From positions 1 through 44,195 of IMG/VR virus record IMGVR_UViG_3300040810_001288: a stretch of 44,195 nt of DNA; one strand, written 5' to 3'. The stretch comes from a virus. The notes beneath the pieces were generated by a model, which was not told the origin of the DNA, made no database searches, and saw nothing but the letters and a program-made list of their open reading frames with translations. Numbering within the stretch: position 1 is the stretch's first letter; each line of letters starts with the position of its first letter. This document shows, in pieces, positions 6,108-36,444 of the stretch. The position numbers were made by a program, and so were the translations under genes.

Positions 6108-8096
6108 TTATGAGCGCTTTCTGAACATAGCAGCATACTTCTCCCAGGATGGATCCTTTGTCTTTCTCGCCTTCAAAAGTTTGTCCACAAAAATATCCTT
6201 CGCAACCATCGCATACAAGCGACAATCAAAAAGGTGGTTCTGATAGGCATCACCTCTCTTGATCCATCTGTATTTCCCTTTTGAATCCACCACCTTATGC
6301 TCAGCCTCGAAATGAGAAAAGAAGTTTTGTGGCAAATATTTCCCGTCAGCTGGGAGTGGAAAGTTGACAAAACAGTTCGGCTGCTTCTCATGGTATCGCT
6401 CATCATATTTCAATGCCAGGTATCGGGCCAGCTCGTCCTTCACAGTATTCGATTGCACCAGGTACAGATTCGGCTTTTCTTTCGCATGTCTGAAGGATCT
6501 CACATCCCGATCAAAGTCCACAAACTTCTCGTCATCATCTCCCTTGAGTCCAACAGTGATGGCCATGCTGTCACAAAATTGATACGCTGATTGAGTTTGA
6601 TACCCGGTATCAACACCAGCACAAGCAATCTTCATCTTCTTCCCTGTGTCAGTAGGAATGGACGTTTGCAGTATTTCCTGGAACACTGGCCATACACTAT
6701 TCTCAACACCGTGTTCATAACTCCATTTTTTTCGATCCTTCTTCTTTTTCAATTGACTCTCCCTGGGAATAAACGTTCCCACAGATCCATGGTCAATGGA
6801 ATAGCTGGTCATGTTCTCGGACCAGGCAACAATCTCATAGTCCAGTCTCGCATCATCTTCCTTCCCGTTCAAGTCAATCCCACATGTCACCAGGATGATC
6901 TTTCCATTCCCCTGGTCAATGGACAGCTGCTCCGGTATGGTTCCAAGTGGATACTTCTGGATGTTCTTCATGATGTCGCTGGCCTCGATGCTTTCTCCAT
7001 CCGGTTCATACGTTTCTCCCAGGACTACATTCACAAATGTTTGCTGCAAGCTCTCCACACGTTTCTTCTCTGGAGGATTCGCATTCAGATATTGCTTCAC
7101 ATATTCATCCCAGTCATCCATCCCTGGAGGTGCATACAATGAGCTGATCTGATATGATTGATGATGCATCTCCTTTGGATGAGGTTCGCTCGGAATCCAG
7201 ATTCCATTTTGATTCATGTCGTACTTGTGTCGAGATTCAAAAAACCCTCCACACTCCTGGCAAATATATCCCACGGATCCAGGAACAACATTTCCATAGT
7301 CATCCAACTTCCAGGTGATCCCTGCACTCTCAGTCGAGCCTTCAATGTCGATGTTCCACTCCAGTTTGATATGCTTGTGGCAGTGAGGACATGGCACATG
7401 CCAATACCTCTGATCACCCCGAAGGAAACAGTCTTCAATGTTGGAGAGTCCCTTCAGCTGAGGTGAACTCACATAGTATATCTTTTTCTTGTGTGCGTAT
7501 GCCTTTGTCCGACCCTGAACCAATGCCCTAGCAGATCCAGCATCTTTGGAGGACTTGCTTGCTGCATCGAAGTCATCCACGATCATCACCATGATGTCCT
7601 CCTGTCTCAGCATGTTGTGATTCGTTACAGATCCAGCAATCAGCTGGCCACCTGGAAACTGCTTCAGCTTGTTGGTGTCACCAGTCTTGTTGTTCTTTGC
7701 CTTGATCGTGTTCGGCCTGATGTATTTCCGAAGGCCAGAATTGGTGATCATCTTGTCCACTTTTTCCATGGCCGTCTTTGAAAGTTCAGAGTGGCCAGTG
7801 AGCAGCATGCTGTTTCCAGGATTCTGTCCGATGGTATATCCAATCAATGGAAGGATCACCGCCCAGGTTCCACCGAGCTGAGCTCCCTTCATGATTGTCA
7901 CCTCCCTCACTGAAGAGTTCTTGTGGCCACAATTCAAAGGTTCCTTCCAGTATGGTGTGAGGTCGAATTTGAATGGACCAGGGAAAGCCTCTCCTGGAGG
8001 CATCACCATATTATTTTCAAACCACTCGCTTGGGATCGTATCGGACATGAAGTTCAATGTCCTGCCCAGGAGATGGTCAACTGTTTTTTGATACAT
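6108..8096 (-). CDS. Terminase large subunit, lambda gpA family
   Basis: The packaging ATPase and nuclease. The N-terminal signature MPPGEAFPGPFKFDLTPYW and VTIMKGAQLGGTWAVILPLIGYTIG (Walker-A-like region) are typical of GpA proteins, as is IMVMIVDDFDAASKSSKDAG (Walker B). A zinc-knuckle segment follows (CPHCHK, then CQECGG). The C-terminal nuclease part includes VTCGIDLNGKEDDARLDYEIVAW, IACAGVDTGYQT and the late HLFDCRLYAMVAKDIF segment. I chose ATG 8094-8096 (MYQKTVDHLL, 662 residues) over the upstream ATG at 8141, because the longer form would overlap the small gene at 8110-8223 and adds 15 residues unlike the family. The gpA family usually works with cos sites. Confidence 0.95.
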   Translation of the reverse strand: MYQKTVDHLLGRTLNFMSDTIPSEWFENNMVMPPGEAFPGPFKFDLTPYWKEPLNCGHKNSSVREVTIMKGAQLGGTWAVILPLIGYTIGQNPGNSMLLTGHSELSKTAMEKVDKMITNSGLRKYIRPNTIKAKNNKTGDTNKLKQFPGGQLIAGSVTNHNMLRQEDIMVMIVDDFDAASKSSKDAGSARALVQGRTKAYAHKKKIYYVSSPQLKGLSNIEDCFLRGDQRYWHVPCPHCHKHIKLEWNIDIEGSTESAGITWKLDDYGNVVPGSVGYICQECGGFFESRHKYDMNQNGIWIPSEPHPKEMHHQSYQISSLYAPPGMDDWDEYVKQYLNANPPEKKRVESLQQTFVNVVLGETYEPDGESIEASDIMKNIQKYPLGTIPEQLSIDQGNGKIILVTCGIDLNGKEDDARLDYEIVAWSENMTSYSIDHGSVGTFIPRESQLKKKKDRKKWSYEHGVENSVWPVFQEILQTSIPTDTGKKMKIACAGVDTGYQTQSAYQFCDSMAITVGLKGDDDEKFVDFDRDVRSFRHAKEKPNLYLVQSNTVKDELARYLALKYDERYHEKQPNCFVNFPLPADGKYLPQNFFSHFEAEHKVVDSKGKYRWIKRGDAYQNHLFDCRLYAMVAKDIFVDKLLKARKTKDPSWEKYAAMFRKRS

Positions 8097-8109
8097 ATAT
8101 ATATATAGT

Positions 8110-8223
8110 TTATTCCAGGAACCAGGTTCCCTCATATTCATATTGAGTGATCAGGAACCAGTCAGTGATCTGCTCAAGTCTCGCCTGCTCCTCAAGGAAG
8201 AGCTCTTCAATTTCTGGGTCCAT
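8110..8223 (-). CDS. Small acidic protein, 37 residues, unknown
   Basis: A short ORF starting MDPEIEELFLEEQARLEQIT and ending in EYEGTWFLE before TAA at 8110-8112. It sits between another small ORF (3-base gap) and the large terminase (13-base gap to the preferred start). That tight packing supports translation. It is strongly acidic and helical at its N-terminus. No family is recognised. It could be a small packaging accessory or head-associated peptide, which is only a guess from position. Confidence 0.55.
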   Translation of the reverse strand: MDPEIEELFLEEQARLEQITDWFLITQYEYEGTWFLE

Positions 8224-8226
8224 CCT

Positions 8227-8316
8227 TCAATTGTATTTTGCTGACAACCAAATGATGGCCAGGACCACAGCGATCATGTAATAAATCAAAAGCTTTGGGA
8301 GATGGTCTTGTATCAT
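8227..8316 (-). CDS. Small single-span membrane peptide, 29 residues
   Basis: This ORF encodes MIQDHLPKLLIYYMIAVVLA and a further nine residues, with one hydrophobic segment (LLIYYMIAVVLAIIWL) and a short charged tail. It lies 25 bases after the small terminase stop and 3 bases before the next small ORF. The close spacing suggests a real gene, but at this length chance cannot be excluded. No family is recognised. Confidence 0.45.
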   Translation of the reverse strand: MIQDHLPKLLIYYMIAVVLAIIWLSAKYN

Positions 8317-8341
8317 TTTACATCAGTGTATTATTATTTGT

Positions 8342-9025
8342 TTAAATTTTCCCTTGCGATTTGGCTGCACTACTGCTGTAGTGCTCCACGATTTCTGACA
8401 GCCTCTTGTGTGCAATGTCATGCTGCTCCTGGAGAGCCGTGTTGATGATCGGTGTCATGTACTCCTTGATGAAGGATCTCTCCTCTCCAGTCAGTTCCTT
8501 CTTCGCTGCAATCCTCACAATCAAACTCTCAATCCCATTGGCAAAAGCCACCTTCCCTGCATCGCTCTGCTCGGTGATGATGTTCTCAACCAGCTCCACC
8601 GGGATCACCTTTCCCTCAGCTTTGTCCACGGCCAATCGTTTCAACCGGATCTCTGTCTCCAGCTTCTCATTCTGCAGCTCGATCTTCAGCCTGGCCTGCT
8701 TTGCTGCAAGCTTGCTCGCCTCATCGATCTCCCTCAACTCCTCCAGCCTGGCATTGGTCACCTTTGTATTGGTAGTTTGCTCAGCAGCTTCAGGGGCTGT
8801 CTCTGGTTTTTTGGACTTCGGTTTTTTTGCAACTGGTTTCTTCTTGTCCAGGAACTCAGCTCGCTTGTGTTGGCGCAAAGCCAGGAACTCAGCATTGACA
8901 AAATCATTGGAATCGATATGGCCATCCTCATTCGGGATCACCTTCCCTCGCTTGATATAGTTTGACAGGTTCCCTCCGGTCATTCCACACATCTCAGCGT
9001 ATTCTTTTCGGCTATAGATCGGCAT
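8342..9025 (-). CDS. Terminase small subunit / DNA-packaging Nu1-like protein
   Basis: A 227-residue protein with an N-terminal helix-turn-helix of the type that recognises packaging sites (YSRKEYAEMCGMTGGNLSNY, then a basic IKRGKVI wing). A Lys/Pro/Ala-rich linker follows, then a long helical region (ARLEELREIDEASKLAAKQA and RLKIELQNEKLETEIRLKRL) and a C-terminal helix set ending SSSAAKSQGKI. Start is ATG 9023-9025 (MPIYSRKEY); the in-frame extension upstream to 9121 encodes an implausible Cys-rich leader and runs through repeated TTGTAGT motifs. It is the first gene of the packaging and late block, directly before the large terminase, and lies just downstream of the candidate cos region. 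Confidence 0.82.
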   Translation of the reverse strand: MPIYSRKEYAEMCGMTGGNLSNYIKRGKVIPNEDGHIDSNDFVNAEFLALRQHKRAEFLDKKKPVAKKPKSKKPETAPEAAEQTTNTKVTNARLEELREIDEASKLAAKQARLKIELQNEKLETEIRLKRLAVDKAEGKVIPVELVENIITEQSDAGKVAFANGIESLIVRIAAKKELTGEERSFIKEYMTPIINTALQEQHDIAHKRLSEIVEHYSSSAAKSQGKI

Positions 9026-9030
9026 AGTAG

Positions 9031-9038
9031 CAAATGTA
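9031..9038 (-). promoter_or_regulatory. Possible -7 box of the late/packaging promoter
   Basis: The minus strand has TACATTTG, an exact TAnnTTTG, only 5 bases before the terminase small-subunit ATG. That would place transcription start at or beside the ATG. No well-spaced TTTG -33 element is seen: TTG occurrences lie 15 or 24 bases away. Repeated TTGTAGT motifs lie upstream (about 9039-9078) and may be regulator or terminase binding sites. Confidence 0.3.
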
Positions 9039-9291
9039 GTCAAAAAAATACTACAATGACTACAACAAGCAACTACAAAATTTCGAAAAGGTCCAACACA
9101 TAAAAAAATGCGGCTTAGCATCCATTGCGTGGGGGCAAAAAAAATCCCTACAGTACCTTTTTTGAAATCATATAAGAATATGCTTCACACATGCTCTCCT
9201 CTCTACCGCACACACGTACAATCAGAAGGCACCTCCCTCCTCCAATGTGTTTCTTCTCCTGGGGAAATAATATCTTGCAGCAGATGCCCCC

Positions 9292-9302
9292 GGGCGCGAC
9301 CT
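9292..9302 (+). other. Candidate cosN-like site
   Basis: GGGCGCGACCT matches the 12-base lambda cohesive end GGGCGGCGACCT with one base missing. It lies in the most GC-rich spot of an AT-rich intergenic region, roughly 270 bases upstream of the terminase small-subunit start, close to the distance between cos and nu1 in lambda. The orientation relative to the terminase genes is opposite to that in lambda, and no end data are available, so this is only a candidate. Confidence 0.35.
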
Positions 9303-9359
9303 ATGTGATCACCTCGAATCAGAAGATGATCCACAGCGTAGCTCATGACATATGGTATG

Positions 9360-9386
9360 GTTACCTGATCGCATCGATTAGGTGAC
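9360..9386. promoter_or_regulatory. Operator-like imperfect palindrome 1
   Basis: The left arm GTTACCTGATCG (9360-9371) and right arm CGATTAGGTGAC (9375-9386) pair at 10 of 12 positions around a 3-base centre. It is the outermost left member of the GGTTACC family in this region and probably binds a dimeric protein. Confidence 0.6.
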
Positions 9387-9462
9387 AAAACGTTTTTATT
9401 TGGTAACCGCTGCAGACTATGATATTACTAAGGGATATGGAAACAATCAAAGTGTCTATTGG

Positions 9463-9486
9463 GGTACGGTAACCGGTTTGGTAACC
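9463..9486 (+). repeat. 24-bp inverted repeat, left arm
   Basis: These 24 bases are the exact reverse complement of 9716-9739. The arm itself contains two GGTAACC half-sites (9468-9474 and 9480-9486), 12 bases apart. The arms enclose about 230 bases that are extremely AT-rich. Confidence 0.9.
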
Positions 9487-9715
9487 GTATTTTGTAGTAT
9501 TTTAAGGGCTTATATGGAAACGTTACCAAAAAAGGGGTGTTTTTATTATTAAGTGTATAATAAGTAGAATTTTATTTTTTCGTTTTTTTCTCTCTTCTCG
9601 GTTTTTTTAGTCATGTCTGATATTTTATGTTTTTACTTTCTAAAAGGTTTTAATATAAAAAAGTACCAAATATAATCAACGTTTCCTGTATATACCTATA
9701 ATTCAGACAGTTGCA
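9487..9715. other. AT-rich core between inverted repeats, candidate origin
   Basis: The stretch between the 24-bp arms is dominated by T and A tracts (for example around 9541-9560 and 9571-9610). It contains one further half-site (GTTACC, 9522-9527) and no credible ORF. Iteron-flanked AT-rich DNA beside a nuclease gene and the packaging genes is typical of an unwinding element. Origin function is inferred. Confidence 0.4.
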
Positions 9716-9739
9716 GGTTACCAAACCGGTTACCGTACC
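9716..9739 (-). repeat. 24-bp inverted repeat, right arm
   Basis: This is the perfect reverse complement of 9463-9486 and carries GGTTACC at 9716-9722 and 9728-9734. The second half-site also pairs with GGTAACC at 9750-9756 as another imperfect palindrome (9728-9756, 10 of 13 positions). Confidence 0.9.
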
Positions 9740-9823
9740 GGGGCGATTAGGTAACCGCTTGAGATAACTGTCTCAAAATGAAGGGTTTACAGGTTACCAA
9801 ATCGAGGCCATTTTGTCAAAAAA

Positions 9824-9850
9824 GTTACTCAATCGAGTCGATTAGGTAAC
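9824..9850. promoter_or_regulatory. Operator-like imperfect palindrome next to the VRR-NUC promoter
   Basis: The arms GTTACTCAATCGA (9824-9836) and TCGATTAGGTAAC (9838-9850) pair at 11 of 13 positions around one base. The element lies just upstream of the TAAATTTG box of the VRR-NUC gene and would overlap its -33 region, so a bound protein could control that promoter. Confidence 0.6.
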
Positions 9851-9858
9851 TTTTTCAG

Positions 9859-9866
9859 TAAATTTG
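9859..9866 (+). promoter_or_regulatory. Candidate -7 box of the VRR-NUC promoter
   Basis: TAAATTTG is an exact match to TAnnTTTG and ends 7 bases before the ATG at 9874, so the transcript may start at or next to the start codon. No clear TTTG is present 19-21 bases upstream; that space is taken by the palindrome at 9824-9850. Confidence 0.4.
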
Positions 9867-9873
9867 CCCAAAT

Positions 9874-10323
9874 ATGAGCCATCAATCACTCCAAAGCTTT
9901 GACCAGAGATTTGAATATCTTGAAAAAAGATATGTCCTGGTGAAGGATAAAATGATCAAAAAGGATTTCAAGCTGGAAGATGAATTCCAGTGCAAATTGT
10001 ACTACTTTCTCAGTGGCTTTGAATTGTGGTATCCAGATTTGTTCACTTTCAGTGTTCCAAATGAAGGAGTGAGGCATCCAGCTGTTGCTAAAAAGCTGAT
10101 TTCAATGGGATTGAGAAAAGGTGTGTCAGATATGATCATCATGGGGAATGGAAAGATTGCCTTTGTTGAGAACAAGGTGGCCGGAGGCTATCAGAGCCCG
10201 GCACAGAAGCGATTTCAGGCCATTGTGGAGCTGAATCGGTTCCCATATGCATTGCTCAAGAGCAACATTGATCTGAGAGACCTGGTGAAGCGTGTCCTGG
10301 CTTACCTGTATGAACTGAAATGA
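9874..10323 (+). CDS. VRR-NUC domain nuclease
   Basis: A 149-residue protein and one of only two plus-strand genes. Residues 60-115 carry the VRR-NUC pattern: FSVPNEGVRHPAVAKKL, then GVSDMIIM with Asp86, IAFVENK with Glu99 and Lys101, and SPAQKRFQ with Gln111. Together these form a PD-(D/E)XK-type site with Asp, Glu-x-Lys and Gln. Stand-alone VRR-NUC proteins of phages are thought to act as structure-specific nucleases, for example on Holliday junctions. It reads away from the palindrome array and is followed by a weak hairpin (stem AAGCAAC). A resolvase or packaging role is inferred from family and position. Confidence 0.88.
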   Translation: MSHQSLQSFDQRFEYLEKRYVLVKDKMIKKDFKLEDEFQCKLYYFLSGFELWYPDLFTFSVPNEGVRHPAVAKKLISMGLRKGVSDMIIMGNGKIAFVENKVAGGYQSPAQKRFQAIVELNRFPYALLKSNIDLRDLVKRVLAYLYELK

Positions 10324-15452: not shown

Positions 15453-17969
15453 TTATTGGTTACTATCTGAAGGGAATGGAAGATCAATCTCAGCCTGTAC
15501 CGGGATCTCCCTATCTCCGAAAATATATGCTTTGCATGGAGTGTATCCATCTTTTATGGTCACACCTTTCTGGAACTTGATGCCATGCTTTTCACACCAC
15601 TCAGCCAGAGCAGAATTGATCTTTTTGGTGGATGGTTGATACCTGTTTTGGATGTCATAGTCCTTGTAATACTTTCGCACATTGTCTGACATGGTGGTTG
15701 CTTTCACCTGGACTCTTTTTTGCCAGGACTCAATGTTTTCTTCAATGATGCCTCTGATCACAGTTCCATAGTTCATAGTGAACTGCTTGATCCATCCAGT
15801 GTCTGAAAGTGCTCGGTTCTGTAGTTTCTTTCCACACTTCATCCAGGCCTGGATTGATTCGGCCATGAAATGATAGTAGTCTGACCAGTCATCCTCATTC
15901 CATCCTTTTGGAAAGTGTTTGCCATATACCTGGTCCACTCCTCCCTTTTTGGTGAAGTAGTCCGAGAACTCCAGGGCAATCAATCTCCTTCTCACACCTC
16001 CATCTGTCACTTCATAACTGTAGTTCGTTAATACTACAATTTTGGGAGTCCTTTCCACTGGCACATCAACCGGGTTCTTGAATAGTCTTCTCCACTTTAT
16101 GGATCCAGAAGCTGCTTCTTTCAGGAATGTGAAGCTGAAGCTTTTTGGAACATCACTGAGGACCATCAGGCGCTCACCATTCCAGGATTGAAAGAATCGC
16201 TCATCATACTGCAGCTGAGATCCATTTGTTGAACATACTGTTGTGAATAAACTGAACAGGGACATGAAGACATTCTTTCCAGCTCCACCTCCTTGCTTTG
16301 GATCTGGAACCTTTTCGGTCAATGTCACTGTGTATGCTGTTGTCTCATCTTTCCATTCATGTGCTAGGAATCCAGAGATCTGTTTCACATAATCATCCAG
16401 GCCAACTGACTTCTTGATGAAATCTGTGAACACTCCTGGCTTCTTCTCCAGGGGAAAACTTCGATCAATGATGTCATTGGCCATGATCAGCTGATCAATT
16501 TCTTTGTAGTCAAGAAGTGTGTATCCTTTTTTTGTGATGTGCAGCACACCATTCTGAAAAAGTTTGTAGCAATTATCCTGGTCATCGCTGAGGATGGCTG
16601 AGGTATCCAGGACAGGCAATCTGCTGATTGTGTAGTTTGTTGATTTCTCCAGGTATTTCTCCAATGCATCACAGATGTCTTCATACAAGTCCACCTCATC
16701 AGCATATATGTAGTCAGAAAGTGCATCCTGGAAGTCTCGAATTGTTTGAGGCTCCACAAACTTCTCATTTTTGATCCTGTGCAGCTCATCATCAATGGTG
16801 GTGAATCCTAGTCCTTGAGCTACCTGGTAGAGTTTGACTCTGGAGATCTTCACCTCATCATTTTTCCCGAACTTCCAATACTCTCCAAGTGGGAGCTTTT
16901 GTTTTATAGCTTCAACAGCTTCATTGTAGACTGTGAGAGCTTCCTCAGAAAAGTTCTTCATTGGAGGCTGTTTTCTTTCAGCCAGGCGCTGAGCTTTTTC
17001 GGCTTCTTTTAGCTTGTTAGCTTTACCAAAGCCATTCTCTATCAGCCAATTGTACAATTGTGAACCATCGAATCCCTCGTATGTTTGGACCAGGAATGAT
17101 GGTGTGTAGTTGACACCTCCCTCCAGGACATCATCCGATGTGGTGAAGCAGTGATAGTATCTTTTTTCTTTATTGAATGAAGCTGATACTCCACCCTTTT
17201 TCCCTTTTCTTGTGTAGTGGATGAAGAGCTTTGACTCTCGATCAAATGTCCATCCATATTTCTGGATGATTTCAGCTCCTTGTTGAGAGTTGTTGAAGTG
17301 ATTGAAAGGATTCTCATTGTAGTAGTTCGACTCCTTGCTTTTTTTGGTCTCTCTCTCCCTTTTGACTCTTTTTCTCTCATTGAGATCTTCAATGATCAAG
17401 AAGATGACTGACATCTCCTCAGCTGTGATCTCCTGGACTTCTGTATCCTTGTGAACGGAATATCCAGCTGAAGGTGGGACCACAATATATGATCCCTCAC
17501 CTCTCATCTCAATTCCGGCTTCTTTCTCATCTTCTTTCCAGGCTAGTTTTTTGGATCTTGGAATGTCTGTCCCTTCAGGAACTCTGAAAAGAATGTGGTA
17601 CCCTCCAGATTGAGTCTTGTGGATCCTGAGTTTGTTCCAAAGATCTGGATATAGATCCTTGATGCTGGAGAAAAGTTTGTGCTCAACACCGCTCCAGTGT
17701 TTGTTGTCGATGTCGATGCAGATGATCCTCCTGGACACCTGCCCCATGATCATCGCAATCCAGTTGGATTTGTGAGCTTCCATTTGGTGGAACAGCTCAC
17801 TTGGTGTGATGATTTTCTCTTGGTATTTTTTCCAGCCTCTGAATGCTGATTTTGGTTCGTATCTTCTGAAATCTGTTTCCTCAGCTTTGTCTCTCACTGG
17901 GATGACACAGTATCCTTGTTCAATGAATTTGACTGCTTGTGTGTAGACTTGGTGAAATGTGGTGCTCAT
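15453..17969 (-). CDS. Primase-polymerase fused to SF3-like helicase
   Basis: An 838-residue replication enzyme. Residues 1-190 look like a bifunctional primase/polymerase domain: CIDID at 84-88 (metal-binding acids), SGGYHILFR at 121-129 and RGEGSYIVVPPS at 156-167. A linker region follows. Residues about 480-700 form a D5/SF3-type ATPase with Walker A QGGGAGKN (559-566), Walker B-like LMVLSD (601-606), sensor KIVVLTNY (643-650) and arginine-rich RRRLIALEF (670-678). The C-terminus looks like a winged-helix part. Such fusions prime and unwind phage DNA. It lies between a helicase gene and small genes, 45 bases after the preceding stop. Confidence 0.9.
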   Translation of the reverse strand: MSTTFHQVYTQAVKFIEQGYCVIPVRDKAEETDFRRYEPKSAFRGWKKYQEKIITPSELFHQMEAHKSNWIAMIMGQVSRRIICIDIDNKHWSGVEHKLFSSIKDLYPDLWNKLRIHKTQSGGYHILFRVPEGTDIPRSKKLAWKEDEKEAGIEMRGEGSYIVVPPSAGYSVHKDTEVQEITAEEMSVIFLIIEDLNERKRVKRERETKKSKESNYYNENPFNHFNNSQQGAEIIQKYGWTFDRESKLFIHYTRKGKKGGVSASFNKEKRYYHCFTTSDDVLEGGVNYTPSFLVQTYEGFDGSQLYNWLIENGFGKANKLKEAEKAQRLAERKQPPMKNFSEEALTVYNEAVEAIKQKLPLGEYWKFGKNDEVKISRVKLYQVAQGLGFTTIDDELHRIKNEKFVEPQTIRDFQDALSDYIYADEVDLYEDICDALEKYLEKSTNYTISRLPVLDTSAILSDDQDNCYKLFQNGVLHITKKGYTLLDYKEIDQLIMANDIIDRSFPLEKKPGVFTDFIKKSVGLDDYVKQISGFLAHEWKDETTAYTVTLTEKVPDPKQGGGAGKNVFMSLFSLFTTVCSTNGSQLQYDERFFQSWNGERLMVLSDVPKSFSFTFLKEAASGSIKWRRLFKNPVDVPVERTPKIVVLTNYSYEVTDGGVRRRLIALEFSDYFTKKGGVDQVYGKHFPKGWNEDDWSDYYHFMAESIQAWMKCGKKLQNRALSDTGWIKQFTMNYGTVIRGIIEENIESWQKRVQVKATTMSDNVRKYYKDYDIQNRYQPSTKKINSALAEWCEKHGIKFQKGVTIKDGYTPCKAYIFGDREIPVQAEIDLPFPSDSNQ

Positions 17970-18420: not shown

Positions 18421-19881
18421 TTATGCAAGAATTGCATCCTCATACTCCAGGTGTGGATTCGGTGTGTTGTATTTCATGTATCCCTGTTTGTAACCTGCCA
18501 GGGCAGCAAACTCATTCAGGAAGGTCTGTCCTTTGGTCCTGGCCACGGTCATGGCTTTCTTTTTGTCTGCAGTGAAATCAGAATACAGGAGCAGCTCATA
18601 TGGTGTCAGCTGACTGATTCTTTTTCCTCTCAGCTGGTTGTACCTCAAAGTGAGCTCCAGCATGACTGTCTTCTCATTTTTCTCCTTGATCGGTTTTCCA
18701 CCATCATCGAATGTATGGCCACACCTGGAACAAGAAGCTTCATGTCTGAGGCAAATGAATCCACATGATGGACAGTCCTTCATGTCGTCAAGATCTCCCC
18801 ATGCTTTGTGATCAATTTTTTGCTTCCATAAGGTTTTCCAGTCTCGGTTGATATTCCACAATCCAAACCTTTTGGCATTCCCTCCATAGTCCAGGACAGT
18901 GAAGTGGTCTTTTCCTGGAGCAGTTCTGGATCCTCTTCCACACATTTGCAAGTATAAAGGAAGAGAAGTGGTGGCCCGAAGTAGGATGATCAGATCCGTT
19001 GGAGGATGATCGAACCCTTTTGTGAGCATTCCCACTGAAACACAAATGTTGGTTCCTGGATCATTTTTGAAGTTGTACAGCTCCATCTCTGATGACTTAT
19101 TTCCTGTATGCACAAGAGCGACATTTTTTCCCATCTCTCGAAAAACTGTGGCCACCCTGGTTGCATGATTCTGGTTTGCACAGAAGATCATTGCTTTGTG
19201 ATAGTTGAATGTGTCAATGTCTTCAAATAGTCCCTTGTAGACCTCATCCTTTTCAAAAACCTCCTTTTGAGATTCGCTGGAGTATTCACCATTTTTGATG
19301 ATCAGTCCTCCAAGTTTAGCAGACACCCTGGCAAAGTGTCGATATGGAGCCAGGTATCCTCTCTCAATGAGCCACTGAGGTTGTGGACCAACAACAATGT
19401 CATTGTATAGATCTGTGAGGTGTTTGGCATCGATCCAGGAAGGAGTTGCTGTGAATCCGATCATCAGAGCGTTCATCAGCTGCTTCAACAGTTTTGTTGG
19501 AGTTCCAATGTGTGCCTCATCAATGATCAGGACCAGATCTTCTCCCAATGCCTGGAGCTGCTCAATGATAGCCTGTCTTTTGGCCAGGGTTTGAGCCATT
19601 GCAATGTATATCGAGTTCCTATATATGGTGATCTCCTTGACTTTTGCATTGATTTCATATGCATTGTCAAATTCATCTGTGATCTGATCAAAGATCTTCC
19701 TGGCTTCTGTGATGATAACTGGAGTTTTCCCTGCAGAAATGATCCGGTGTGTCATGTACACAAATGTCTTGGTTTTTCCAGATCCGGTTGCTGCACATGC
19801 AATCACTCTTTTGTGATCTCGTAATTTGATGGACAAGTCTGTGGCCAGGTCCAGCTGGTATTGTCTAGGTGTGAAATTCAT
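18421..19881 (-). CDS. DEAH-box SF2 helicase with zinc ribbon
   Basis: A 486-residue helicase. Walker A is ATGSGKT at 31-37, the Walker B/DEAH box is IIDEAHIG with DEAH at 121-124, and motif III is TATPS at 144-148. The C-terminal RecA domain contains AMIFCANQNHATRVATVFRE, TNICVSVGMLTKGFDHP (motif V) and QMCGRGSRTAPGKDHF (motif VI). Near residue 370 a zinc ribbon follows (CPSCG and CSRCGH). The domain order resembles RAD25/UvsW-like phage helicases that remodel forks and recombination intermediates. ATGA overlap couples it to the 47-residue ORF upstream. It neighbours SSB and the RecT module. Confidence 0.92.
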   Translation of the reverse strand: MNFTPRQYQLDLATDLSIKLRDHKRVIACAATGSGKTKTFVYMTHRIISAGKTPVIITEARKIFDQITDEFDNAYEINAKVKEITIYRNSIYIAMAQTLAKRQAIIEQLQALGEDLVLIIDEAHIGTPTKLLKQLMNALMIGFTATPSWIDAKHLTDLYNDIVVGPQPQWLIERGYLAPYRHFARVSAKLGGLIIKNGEYSSESQKEVFEKDEVYKGLFEDIDTFNYHKAMIFCANQNHATRVATVFREMGKNVALVHTGNKSSEMELYNFKNDPGTNICVSVGMLTKGFDHPPTDLIILLRATTSLPLYLQMCGRGSRTAPGKDHFTVLDYGGNAKRFGLWNINRDWKTLWKQKIDHKAWGDLDDMKDCPSCGFICLRHEASCSRCGHTFDDGGKPIKEKNEKTVMLELTLRYNQLRGKRISQLTPYELLLYSDFTADKKKAMTVARTKGQTFLNEFAALAGYKQGYMKYNTPNPHLEYEDAILA

Positions 19882-32711: not shown

Positions 32712-32786
32712 AGGTCTGAAAACAAAAATGAAATATTTTGCATCTGGCACATAAAAAATGTCCGCAATTTTTTAATTTCGTAACCG

Positions 32787-34876: not shown

Positions 34877-35413
34877 TTAATTTGTTTTAACGTTGTCAAC
34901 TTTCGCTCCACTCACATCTGCATTCGATGGTGTTCCTGTTGATGTTGTCGGAGCTGTTGGAGCAGCTGGACTCGGACCAGGACTGTACACATGTGTGTGT
35001 GCATTGTATGTGGAGATCAATGTATTCAAATCAGCCTTCAATGTATTGAATGCAGATTCCAGCTGGCTGAATCTCACAATGAAGTCCTGATCACCATTCA
35101 GCTCCAGGTTCCCATCATTTCTCAGCCATGCATATGCTTGTTCAACACCTTGATCATCAGTACTGTACAACCTCAACTCCCCTGGATCTGAGATCTGGTT
35201 TGTGTTCAAATATCCAATCAGCACCTTCTTGGAATAGTTCGAAGTCCTGGCATACACTGCCATCTTCCCCTTCACTGGAGCTCCATCAATCCCATGAGGA
35301 CTGGCTTCAATTGCTGTCTGAGAATCTGCATTCCCAAAACGCAAAAATTTTCCGATCCTGCGTGATGCCTTATCGAAACTGAAGCTCTCTATTTTTACCA
35401 AGTTTATTGCCAA
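34877..35413 (-). CDS. Baseplate spike protein with HxH tip motif
   Basis: 178 residues. N-terminal beta domain (RIGKFLRFGNADSQTAIEAS), VKGKMAVYARTSNYSKKVLI and ELRLYSTDDQGVEQAYAWLR. A coiled region follows, then YNAHTHVYSPGP (His139 and His141), the His-x-His motif that binds iron at the tip of phage spikes (Mu gp45, P2 V). The C-terminus is Pro/Ala/Thr-rich. No ATG is available near the start. The frame opens at TTG 35411-35413, overlapping the hub gene by 10 bases. Confidence 0.82.
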   Translation of the reverse strand: MAINLVKIESFSFDKASRRIGKFLRFGNADSQTAIEASPHGIDGAPVKGKMAVYARTSNYSKKVLIGYLNTNQISDPGELRLYSTDDQGVEQAYAWLRNDGNLELNGDQDFIVRFSQLESAFNTLKADLNTLISTYNAHTHVYSPGPSPAAPTAPTTSTGTPSNADVSGAKVDNVKTN

Positions 35414-36444
35414 TTCTCAAATATGTTGACCGGATTGCTTCCATCGTAAACACTAGGAAGAACACACTCCAGTACAGAAGTTTTTTGCTTGCTATCTCCA
35501 GAGAACTCAACACTCTCCACAAACAGGTTCGTGCGTTCAAATATAAATAAATCCTTGTTTAAAATTGACACGATCTTTCCAGGAAGAAGAAGATCTCCAT
35601 TTGAATCCTCCCACCCCTCCATTGAAATCTGGATCTTGATGTTCTTCAATTCAGAAGCCAGAGCTGTCTTTGCAGCTGTCTCTGTGTCAATGTCAGATCC
35701 ACTGTCTTGAGTGATCACCTTCGGTCTGAATGTGAATGGGACAAATGGATTTCTGATTGTTGTCTGACCTGCATTCCCACCTTCATCATCAGCTTCTTTC
35801 ATCACTGTGATATGACTGTGCAGCTGCTGGCCATTAAACTTGAGAGAGTATTCTAAACCAGGCAAACCTTCTCCAAAGTCCATCACTGGAGTCTTTTGAG
35901 GAGTTGCCCTGGTGAATAAAAGTTTGCCATCCAAAGTGTGTGACATGATCACATTTCTGGAGTTGCAAAGATCTCTCAAATATGCGTATACAGTTTGACC
36001 TTCCTTTGCAGTTGTCTCTTCAATTGGAGCGTTCATCACCGAGCTCACAATGTTGTCAACCTGGATCGAAATTCCAAATCTGCTGGTGAACTTCCTGGCA
36101 ATTTCCAGAAGGCTCAATCCGTTTGTCTGCAGAGGGTAATCTTCAGGAGCAATGGAGCAATCATTCAATACTCCTGGAAGAGAGTATCCTGATAATCCAG
36201 TGAACTCTTTTCTTGGACCAGTCTTGAATCCAAGGCTGATCAACCTACCTGAAAGCAGAGTCTGGTTCTCATATTCAACCGAACATTTGTGATAGTGGCC
36301 AACATGAGAAAGATCCACATGAAGTGGATTCTCTGGATCTAGGTAGTAGTTGAAATTGAATGAGGATGCAATTGAATCATATGAAAGCTTCAACTTGAAA
36401 TCATTGTAAAACTCAACTTTTTTATTTTTGATTCTCAGTATCAT
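35404..36444 (-). CDS. Baseplate hub protein, Mu P / gpD-like
   Basis: 346 residues. N-terminal beta barrel (MILRIKNKKVEFYNDFKLKL, then GHYHKCSVEYENQTLLSGRL), a middle domain (LLEIARKFTSRFGISIQVDN and GQTVYAYLRDLCNSRNVIMS) and a C-terminal beta part (LLPGKIVSILNKDLFIFERT). The arrangement matches Mu gp44 (P) and T4 gp27-like hubs that hold the spike. It overlaps the N-like gene upstream by ATGA and the spike downstream by 10 bases. Confidence 0.8.
   Translation of the reverse strand: MILRIKNKKVEFYNDFKLKLSYDSIASSFNFNYYLDPENPLHVDLSHVGHYHKCSVEYENQTLLSGRLISLGFKTGPRKEFTGLSGYSLPGVLNDCSIAPEDYPLQTNGLSLLEIARKFTSRFGISIQVDNIVSSVMNAPIEETTAKEGQTVYAYLRDLCNSRNVIMSHTLDGKLLFTRATPQKTPVMDFGEGLPGLEYSLKFNGQQLHSHITVMKEADDEGGNAGQTTIRNPFVPFTFRPKVITQDSGSDIDTETAAKTALASELKNIKIQISMEGWEDSNGDLLLPGKIVSILNKDLFIFERTNLFVESVEFSGDSKQKTSVLECVLPSVYDGSNPVNIFENWQ

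Follow-up and report, generated by a model that had tools for sequence, protein, structure and literature searches.

What is the function of the long intergenic region that lies between the small terminase gene and a VRR-NUC-like nuclease gene in this phage? The window, by which we mean the whole 44,195-base stretch of DNA analysed, is a complete circular phage record whose ends overlap by 127 bp. It encodes a contractile-tailed phage, with matches to sheath, tape measure and hub proteins and with a large terminase of the gpA type. The nearest named phages, ranked by terminase, infect Flavobacterium and Cellulophaga, so the host presumably belongs to the Bacteroidota. Nearly all large genes of the window are on the minus strand. 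About 850 bp without a convincing gene separate terS (8342–9025, minus strand) from the VRR-NUC-like gene (9874–10323, plus strand). The latter gives a sub-threshold match to Pfam VRR_NUC and has a strong homologue in genome G052. Between the two genes lies an array of short repeats at 9359–9851, with terS as a neighbour and the transcription of VRR-NUC pointing away from it. We consider it probable that this array is a bidirectional replication origin, likely bound by the phage's own Prim-Pol/SF3 primase-helicase. From sequence we infer the start of replication at the array, the identity of its binder and an autoregulatory role. Searched as single sequences, terL, VRR-NUC and primase gave no matches, no close DNA relatives of the phage were found, and the comparisons below are with distant relatives. 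An Rfam match to a human lncRNA at 9147–9324 is below the gathering score and is taken as chance.

The array contains 12 half-sites of the asymmetric word CGATTwGGTAACCG. The earlier note had listed about a dozen GGTTACC/GGTAACC half-sites in this region; the array is real, and a half-site or near copy is present at every position listed. Some copies deviate from the word as given: the site at 9381 is the degenerate GGTGAC, that at 9522 reads CGTTACC, and those at 9824 and 9845 read GTTACT and GGTAACT. The GTAAC core is on the plus strand at 9403, 9469, 9481, 9751 and 9846, with a degenerate copy at 9382, and on the minus strand at 9360, 9522, 9717, 9729, 9793 and 9824. GGTWACC has eight exact copies in the whole window, all within 9359–9798, compared with a whole-window mean of 1.08 and a maximum of 4 in dinucleotide shuffles. 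For the segment 9346–9860 the expectation for these eight copies is a mean of 0.12 and a maximum of 3 (5000 shuffles), and relaxed half-sites raise the count of the array to 12. The density check suggested earlier used a position matrix derived from the 12 array half-sites, which was scanned over the whole genome. The 12 top scores of the genome are exactly the 12 array sites, and in a leave-one-out matrix nine of them outscore every place outside the array. The GTAACCG at 32780–32786, which had been put forward as the same half-site beside an RHH start codon, is present, but its rank in the matrix scan is 29th, at background level; outside the array there are 18 GTWAC in all, of which this is one, and it shows no functional sign.

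The most regular feature of the array is a perfect 24-bp inverted repeat that is absent from the earlier note. Its left arm (9463–9486, plus strand) and right arm (9716–9739, minus strand) each consist of two direct half-sites 12 bp apart; they match each other on opposite strands at 100% and are separated by 229 bp. The 150 bp with the highest AT content in the genome (9541–9690, 78.7% AT) lie between the arms and are a proposed unwinding element. Palindromic sites with a 12+3+12 arrangement are at 9360–9386 and at 9824–9850, the second just upstream of the VRR-NUC promoter box. Both had been noted and are real, whereas a third proposed palindrome, 9728–9756, pairs mainly in its outer bases. 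The confinement of every genomic GGTWACC to an array that encloses the AT-richest 150 bp between perfect arms argues for an origin.

The strand composition points to the same place. With almost the entire gene set on one strand, the third-position GC skew of the window is free of the gene-strand confound. Two change points fitted without constraint on the circle fall at 9.0–10.5 kb and 29.5–30 kb, and the skew at fourfold sites is −0.07 between the two changes vs +0.30 outside. With an antipodal terminus, the best origin is at 9500 for all third positions and at 7500–10000 for fourfold sites alone. None of 2000 gene shuffles reaches the observed third-position skew fit, and a gene-strand-aware skew model again gives 9500. 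The leading strand is expected to be G-rich, and on this rule the sign of the skew is that of an origin, not of a terminus. Gene class is not the cause, since structural genes (24–30 kb) and replication genes agree in their skew. A switch of strand composition with a G-rich leading strand, the general mark of an origin, is thus found at the array with the sign required, at a resolution of about 1 kb that is too coarse to tell the array from cos, 240 bp away. The second change, at 29.5–30 kb, lies some 20 kb from the array within the block of structural genes, where a replication terminus would be expected.

Terminase relatives were scanned for repeat clusters without assuming a word. Several of them have one dominant cluster of the non-coding type, either upstream of cos or close to the right end; the array of the window is about 240–740 bp from cos and occupies the right end of the chromosome as packaged. 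In G004, 11 copies of AGGTTCC surround a 93% AT core and the cluster abuts the primase gene; copies on the left are in one orientation and those on the right mostly in the other, with almost pure AT between them. G008/L070 has nine copies of AAGCAGG with an 87% AT core, L075 six copies of GGCAACC with an 85% AT core and G006 six copies of TGCAACA with an 87% AT core. Cores of 85–93% AT are therefore within the arrays of these four genomes, while clusters in G005 (ATGCACA, eight copies) and G002 (GACACAC, six copies) have weaker cores outside this range. In these distant relatives the position and layout of the array recur and the word differs. No array of comparable strength is found near cos in six other complete relatives. 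The gene-strand-aware model places the G008 origin at 35000 and the G008 array is at 35114–35416, so skew and array agree in the window and in G008; the two differ by 1–4 kb in G002 and G005, and in G004 and G006 they conflict, lying 12–14 kb from each other. In L070, the segment 8250–8552 combines the AAGCAGG array with 54-nt inverted arms and an AT-rich core, and the skew-predicted origin falls there. The recurrence of clusters with different words near cos, mostly with an AT-rich core, is the third line of evidence for the origin reading.

Some other clusters were treated separately. Five copies of AGCCCCT in G010 (9591–9794), three and two copies 11 bp apart, are far from cos and possibly mark an origin elsewhere in that phage. 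CTATTGC repeats of L139 (2641–2829) form two groups by the integrase gene and look like attachment-site arm repeats; they were left out as an origin because they adjoin this gene (the L139 primase is 24% identical). VRR-NUC as a necessary partner of the array was also dropped, as the G004 array adjoins the primase gene and the VRR-NUC gene of G004 is 16 kb away.

Which protein recognizes the half-sites is best addressed with G052/L134, found by a search with the helicase part of the window primase-helicase. There is no match to the window large terminase in G052/L134. Over all frames of 21.7 kb of G052, the detectably shared proteins are only VRR-NUC (2e-23), the primase-helicase (2e-294, 51% identical) and the SF2 helicase (1e-178). 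GTAAC, chosen for this genome in advance from the window, occurs seven times in the AT-rich late/early intergenic region of G052, top of 237 five-mer classes (shuffle p 0.0002), and the copies lie around a 92% AT core. The full half-site matrix fails to transfer to G052; the flanks differ and only the GTAAC core carries over. As G052 has the core in common with the window together with the replication proteins only, the core goes with these proteins and not with terminase or RHH proteins, which again favours an origin. The RHH proteins, once suggested as binders, are not supported: the word beside the RHH gene scores no higher than background, and G052 keeps the core with no RHH homologue detectable in 21.7 kb. 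The suggestion of one phage regulator or replication initiator thus survives in its second half, supported by the skew, the AT-rich core, the recurrence near cos and the core in G052; among the binders proposed with it the primase is favoured, and the small terminase and the RHH proteins are not.

The most likely initiator is the Prim-Pol/SF3 (D5-type) primase-helicase (15453–17969, minus strand), whose gene is separated from the array by 5.6 kb and about ten ORFs. It is the likeliest of the three shared proteins by analogy with P4 alpha, SaPI Rep and Cch2. P4 alpha binds its origin repeats through a winged helix (PMC4234260), and SaPI Rep and Cch2 bind origins by their C-terminal domain (PMC7581432). 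The C-terminal ~110 residues of the primase-helicase, about 726–838, are proposed to bind the half-sites. The protein has a Prim-Pol domain and a helicase region homologous to a G004 protein, which itself gives weak matches to P4-family primase_Cterm and DUF5906. AlphaFold models of the helicase region and the C-terminal domain have pLDDT of 35 and 45, too low to judge whether a DNA-binding fold such as a C-terminal winged helix is present, and sequence searches of the PDB gave no meaningful match. The SF2 (ResIII/DEAD) helicase (18421–19881, minus strand), also common to G052, is an alternative binder or accessory factor, and a host factor could conceivably be the binder.

An unlikely alternative is that the array is an operator field, where an RHH protein or another regulator on the sites controls divergent terS and VRR-NUC promoters. 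Promoters of Bacteroidota have a −7 box, TAnnTTTG, and in nearly leaderless ones this box is only a few bases before the gene. The word TANNTTTGC occurs only eight times in the window, and two of these, at 9030–9038 (minus strand) and 9859–9867 (plus strand), are 5–7 bases before terS and VRR-NUC, respectively, so that both flanking genes carry such a box on the array side. The VRR-NUC box, TAAATTTGC, matches TAnnTTTG, and the box on the terS side overlaps one TGTAGT repeat. End sites of the array are just upstream of −7 boxes in the window, L075 and L070, and a small divergent gene adjoins the L075 array, all in keeping with an operator. However, an operator of 12 sites spanning 490 bp, with the AT-richest DNA in their midst, would be unusual, and the nearest site is 334 bp from terS. 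The neighbouring gene varies (VRR-NUC, primase, others) while layout and near-cos position persist, the skew switch is left unexplained, and G052 shares the core without a detectable regulator homologue. The end sites next to promoter boxes keep regulation alive as a second function, and their adjacency to the TAnnTTTG box suggests that the same array-binding protein also controls the VRR-NUC promoter.

It is quite improbable that the arms act as an origin of the pRN1 type, with the Prim-Pol/SF3 protein recognizing an extruded stem-loop rather than double-stranded iterons. In its favour are the perfect match of the 24-bp arms, the 54-nt arms (80%) of L070, and the proposal that proteins combining an archaeo-eukaryotic primase, an SF3 helicase and a winged helix, phage ones included, assemble on such structures (PMC4234260). 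Against it, the stem would close a loop of 229 nt, the majority of half-sites are outside the arms, and in G052 the half-site core is present although no strong long inverted repeat accompanies it.

We give very little credence to a binding field of the small terminase (cosB), which was our first idea. In its favour, the array adjoins terS and arrays of phage-specific words by terS do occur in this group. This idea was dropped when a separate cos element was found at 9030–9123 (minus strand), with the cosN-like ATGCTAAGCCGC followed by TGTAGT repeats, and terS next to it. The TGTAGT repeats are at 9035, 9050, 9059 and 9072, about 50 bp from the cosN-like ATGCTAAGC, which matches contig starts in terminase relatives. 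In many of these relatives the contig begins some 50 bp ahead of a pair of direct repeats that immediately precedes terS; the repeats are 11–13 bp apart, each contig has its own word, and the starts often read like ATGCGAAGC. The same cos layout (ATGCRAAGC/ATGCTAAGC, about 50 bp, direct repeats 11–13 bp apart, terS) recurs at the starts of L004, L022, L023, L028, L033, L072, L078, L084 and others, and its repeat word is phage-specific and might be set against the N-terminal helix-turn-helix of TerS. The arrays on the terS side are thus a different element from the array at 9359–9851, that of the window being the TGTAGT cluster at 9030–9085. The array and terS are on opposite sides of the cosN-like motif (9123), so the array is not between the cos cut site and terS as cosB would be, and in G052 the GTAAC core occurs alongside a terminase that is unrelated. 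The small terminase, also named earlier as a candidate binder, therefore has its own element with other repeats. That the array serves as a partition centromere, or as attP with arm sites for an integrase, is scarcely credible: repeated half-sites and an AT-rich core are also seen at attP and one RHH protein weakly matches ParG, but the window proteins scanned include no match to an integrase or to ParA.

For the array as an origin, the following mechanism may be proposed. The half-sites would be iterons, in two inverted sets flanking the AT-rich core, where melting would begin. The primase-helicase would bind the iterons through its C-terminal domain and assemble on both sides of the core, then open the core and prime synthesis, like PICI/SaPI Rep and P4 alpha. 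The same binding probably also regulates the VRR-NUC gene, as the end sites abut its promoter. Origins of uncultured phages are rarely mapped; this putative one is located from sequence by three independent signals, and it offers a specific candidate initiator and a short repeat word for tests.

The array shares features with several known systems and is identical to none. Lambda cosB with Nu1 also has repeated protein sites near terS and a gpA-type large terminase, but here the cosB-like element is the separate TGTAGT cluster. P4 has primase and helicase fused in one protein and origin repeats bound by the winged helix of the initiator (PMC4234260); the primase of alpha, however, is of the Toprim type and P4 depends on a second cis region, while the window protein is of the Prim-Pol type. 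ORF904 of pRN1 (PMC4234260) likewise joins a Prim-Pol type primase and an SF3-type helicase, yet its origin is a 100-nt stem-loop without iterons. An origin of that type would be a large iteron-free stem-loop 3' of the replication gene; the site in the window has iterons and an AT-rich core and is not 3'-adjacent to that gene, a counter-example to the stem-loop origins proposed for Prim-Pol/SF3 phage proteins (PMC4234260). The closest layout is that of PICI origins, with two iteron sets around an AT-rich region (PMC6092414), an arrangement that the window also has. As in PICI/SaPI (PMC6092414, PMC7581432), the words are element-specific, the presumed initiator is an SF3/AAA+ helicase with the primase sometimes fused, and packaging genes are nearby. 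The differences are that the window is a self-sufficient tailed phage, with the array next to cos and its inverted sites in mixed orientation, that the primase is of the Prim-Pol type, and that the array is 5.6 kb from the helicase gene, not directly 3' of a rep/primase gene. Since it does not directly follow the 3' end of the initiator gene, we do not class it as a PICI origin, and its origin function is a prediction. A tentative extension is a modular class of origins in cos-type phages of presumed Bacteroidota hosts, with a right-end origin, a word matched to each phage's own initiator, Prim-Pol/SF3 proteins on PICI-like iterons and an exchangeable cassette of origin and cos. A PICI-like layout in a self-sufficient tailed phage and its relatives would widen the class of such origins and bears on the ancestry of the PICI replicon.
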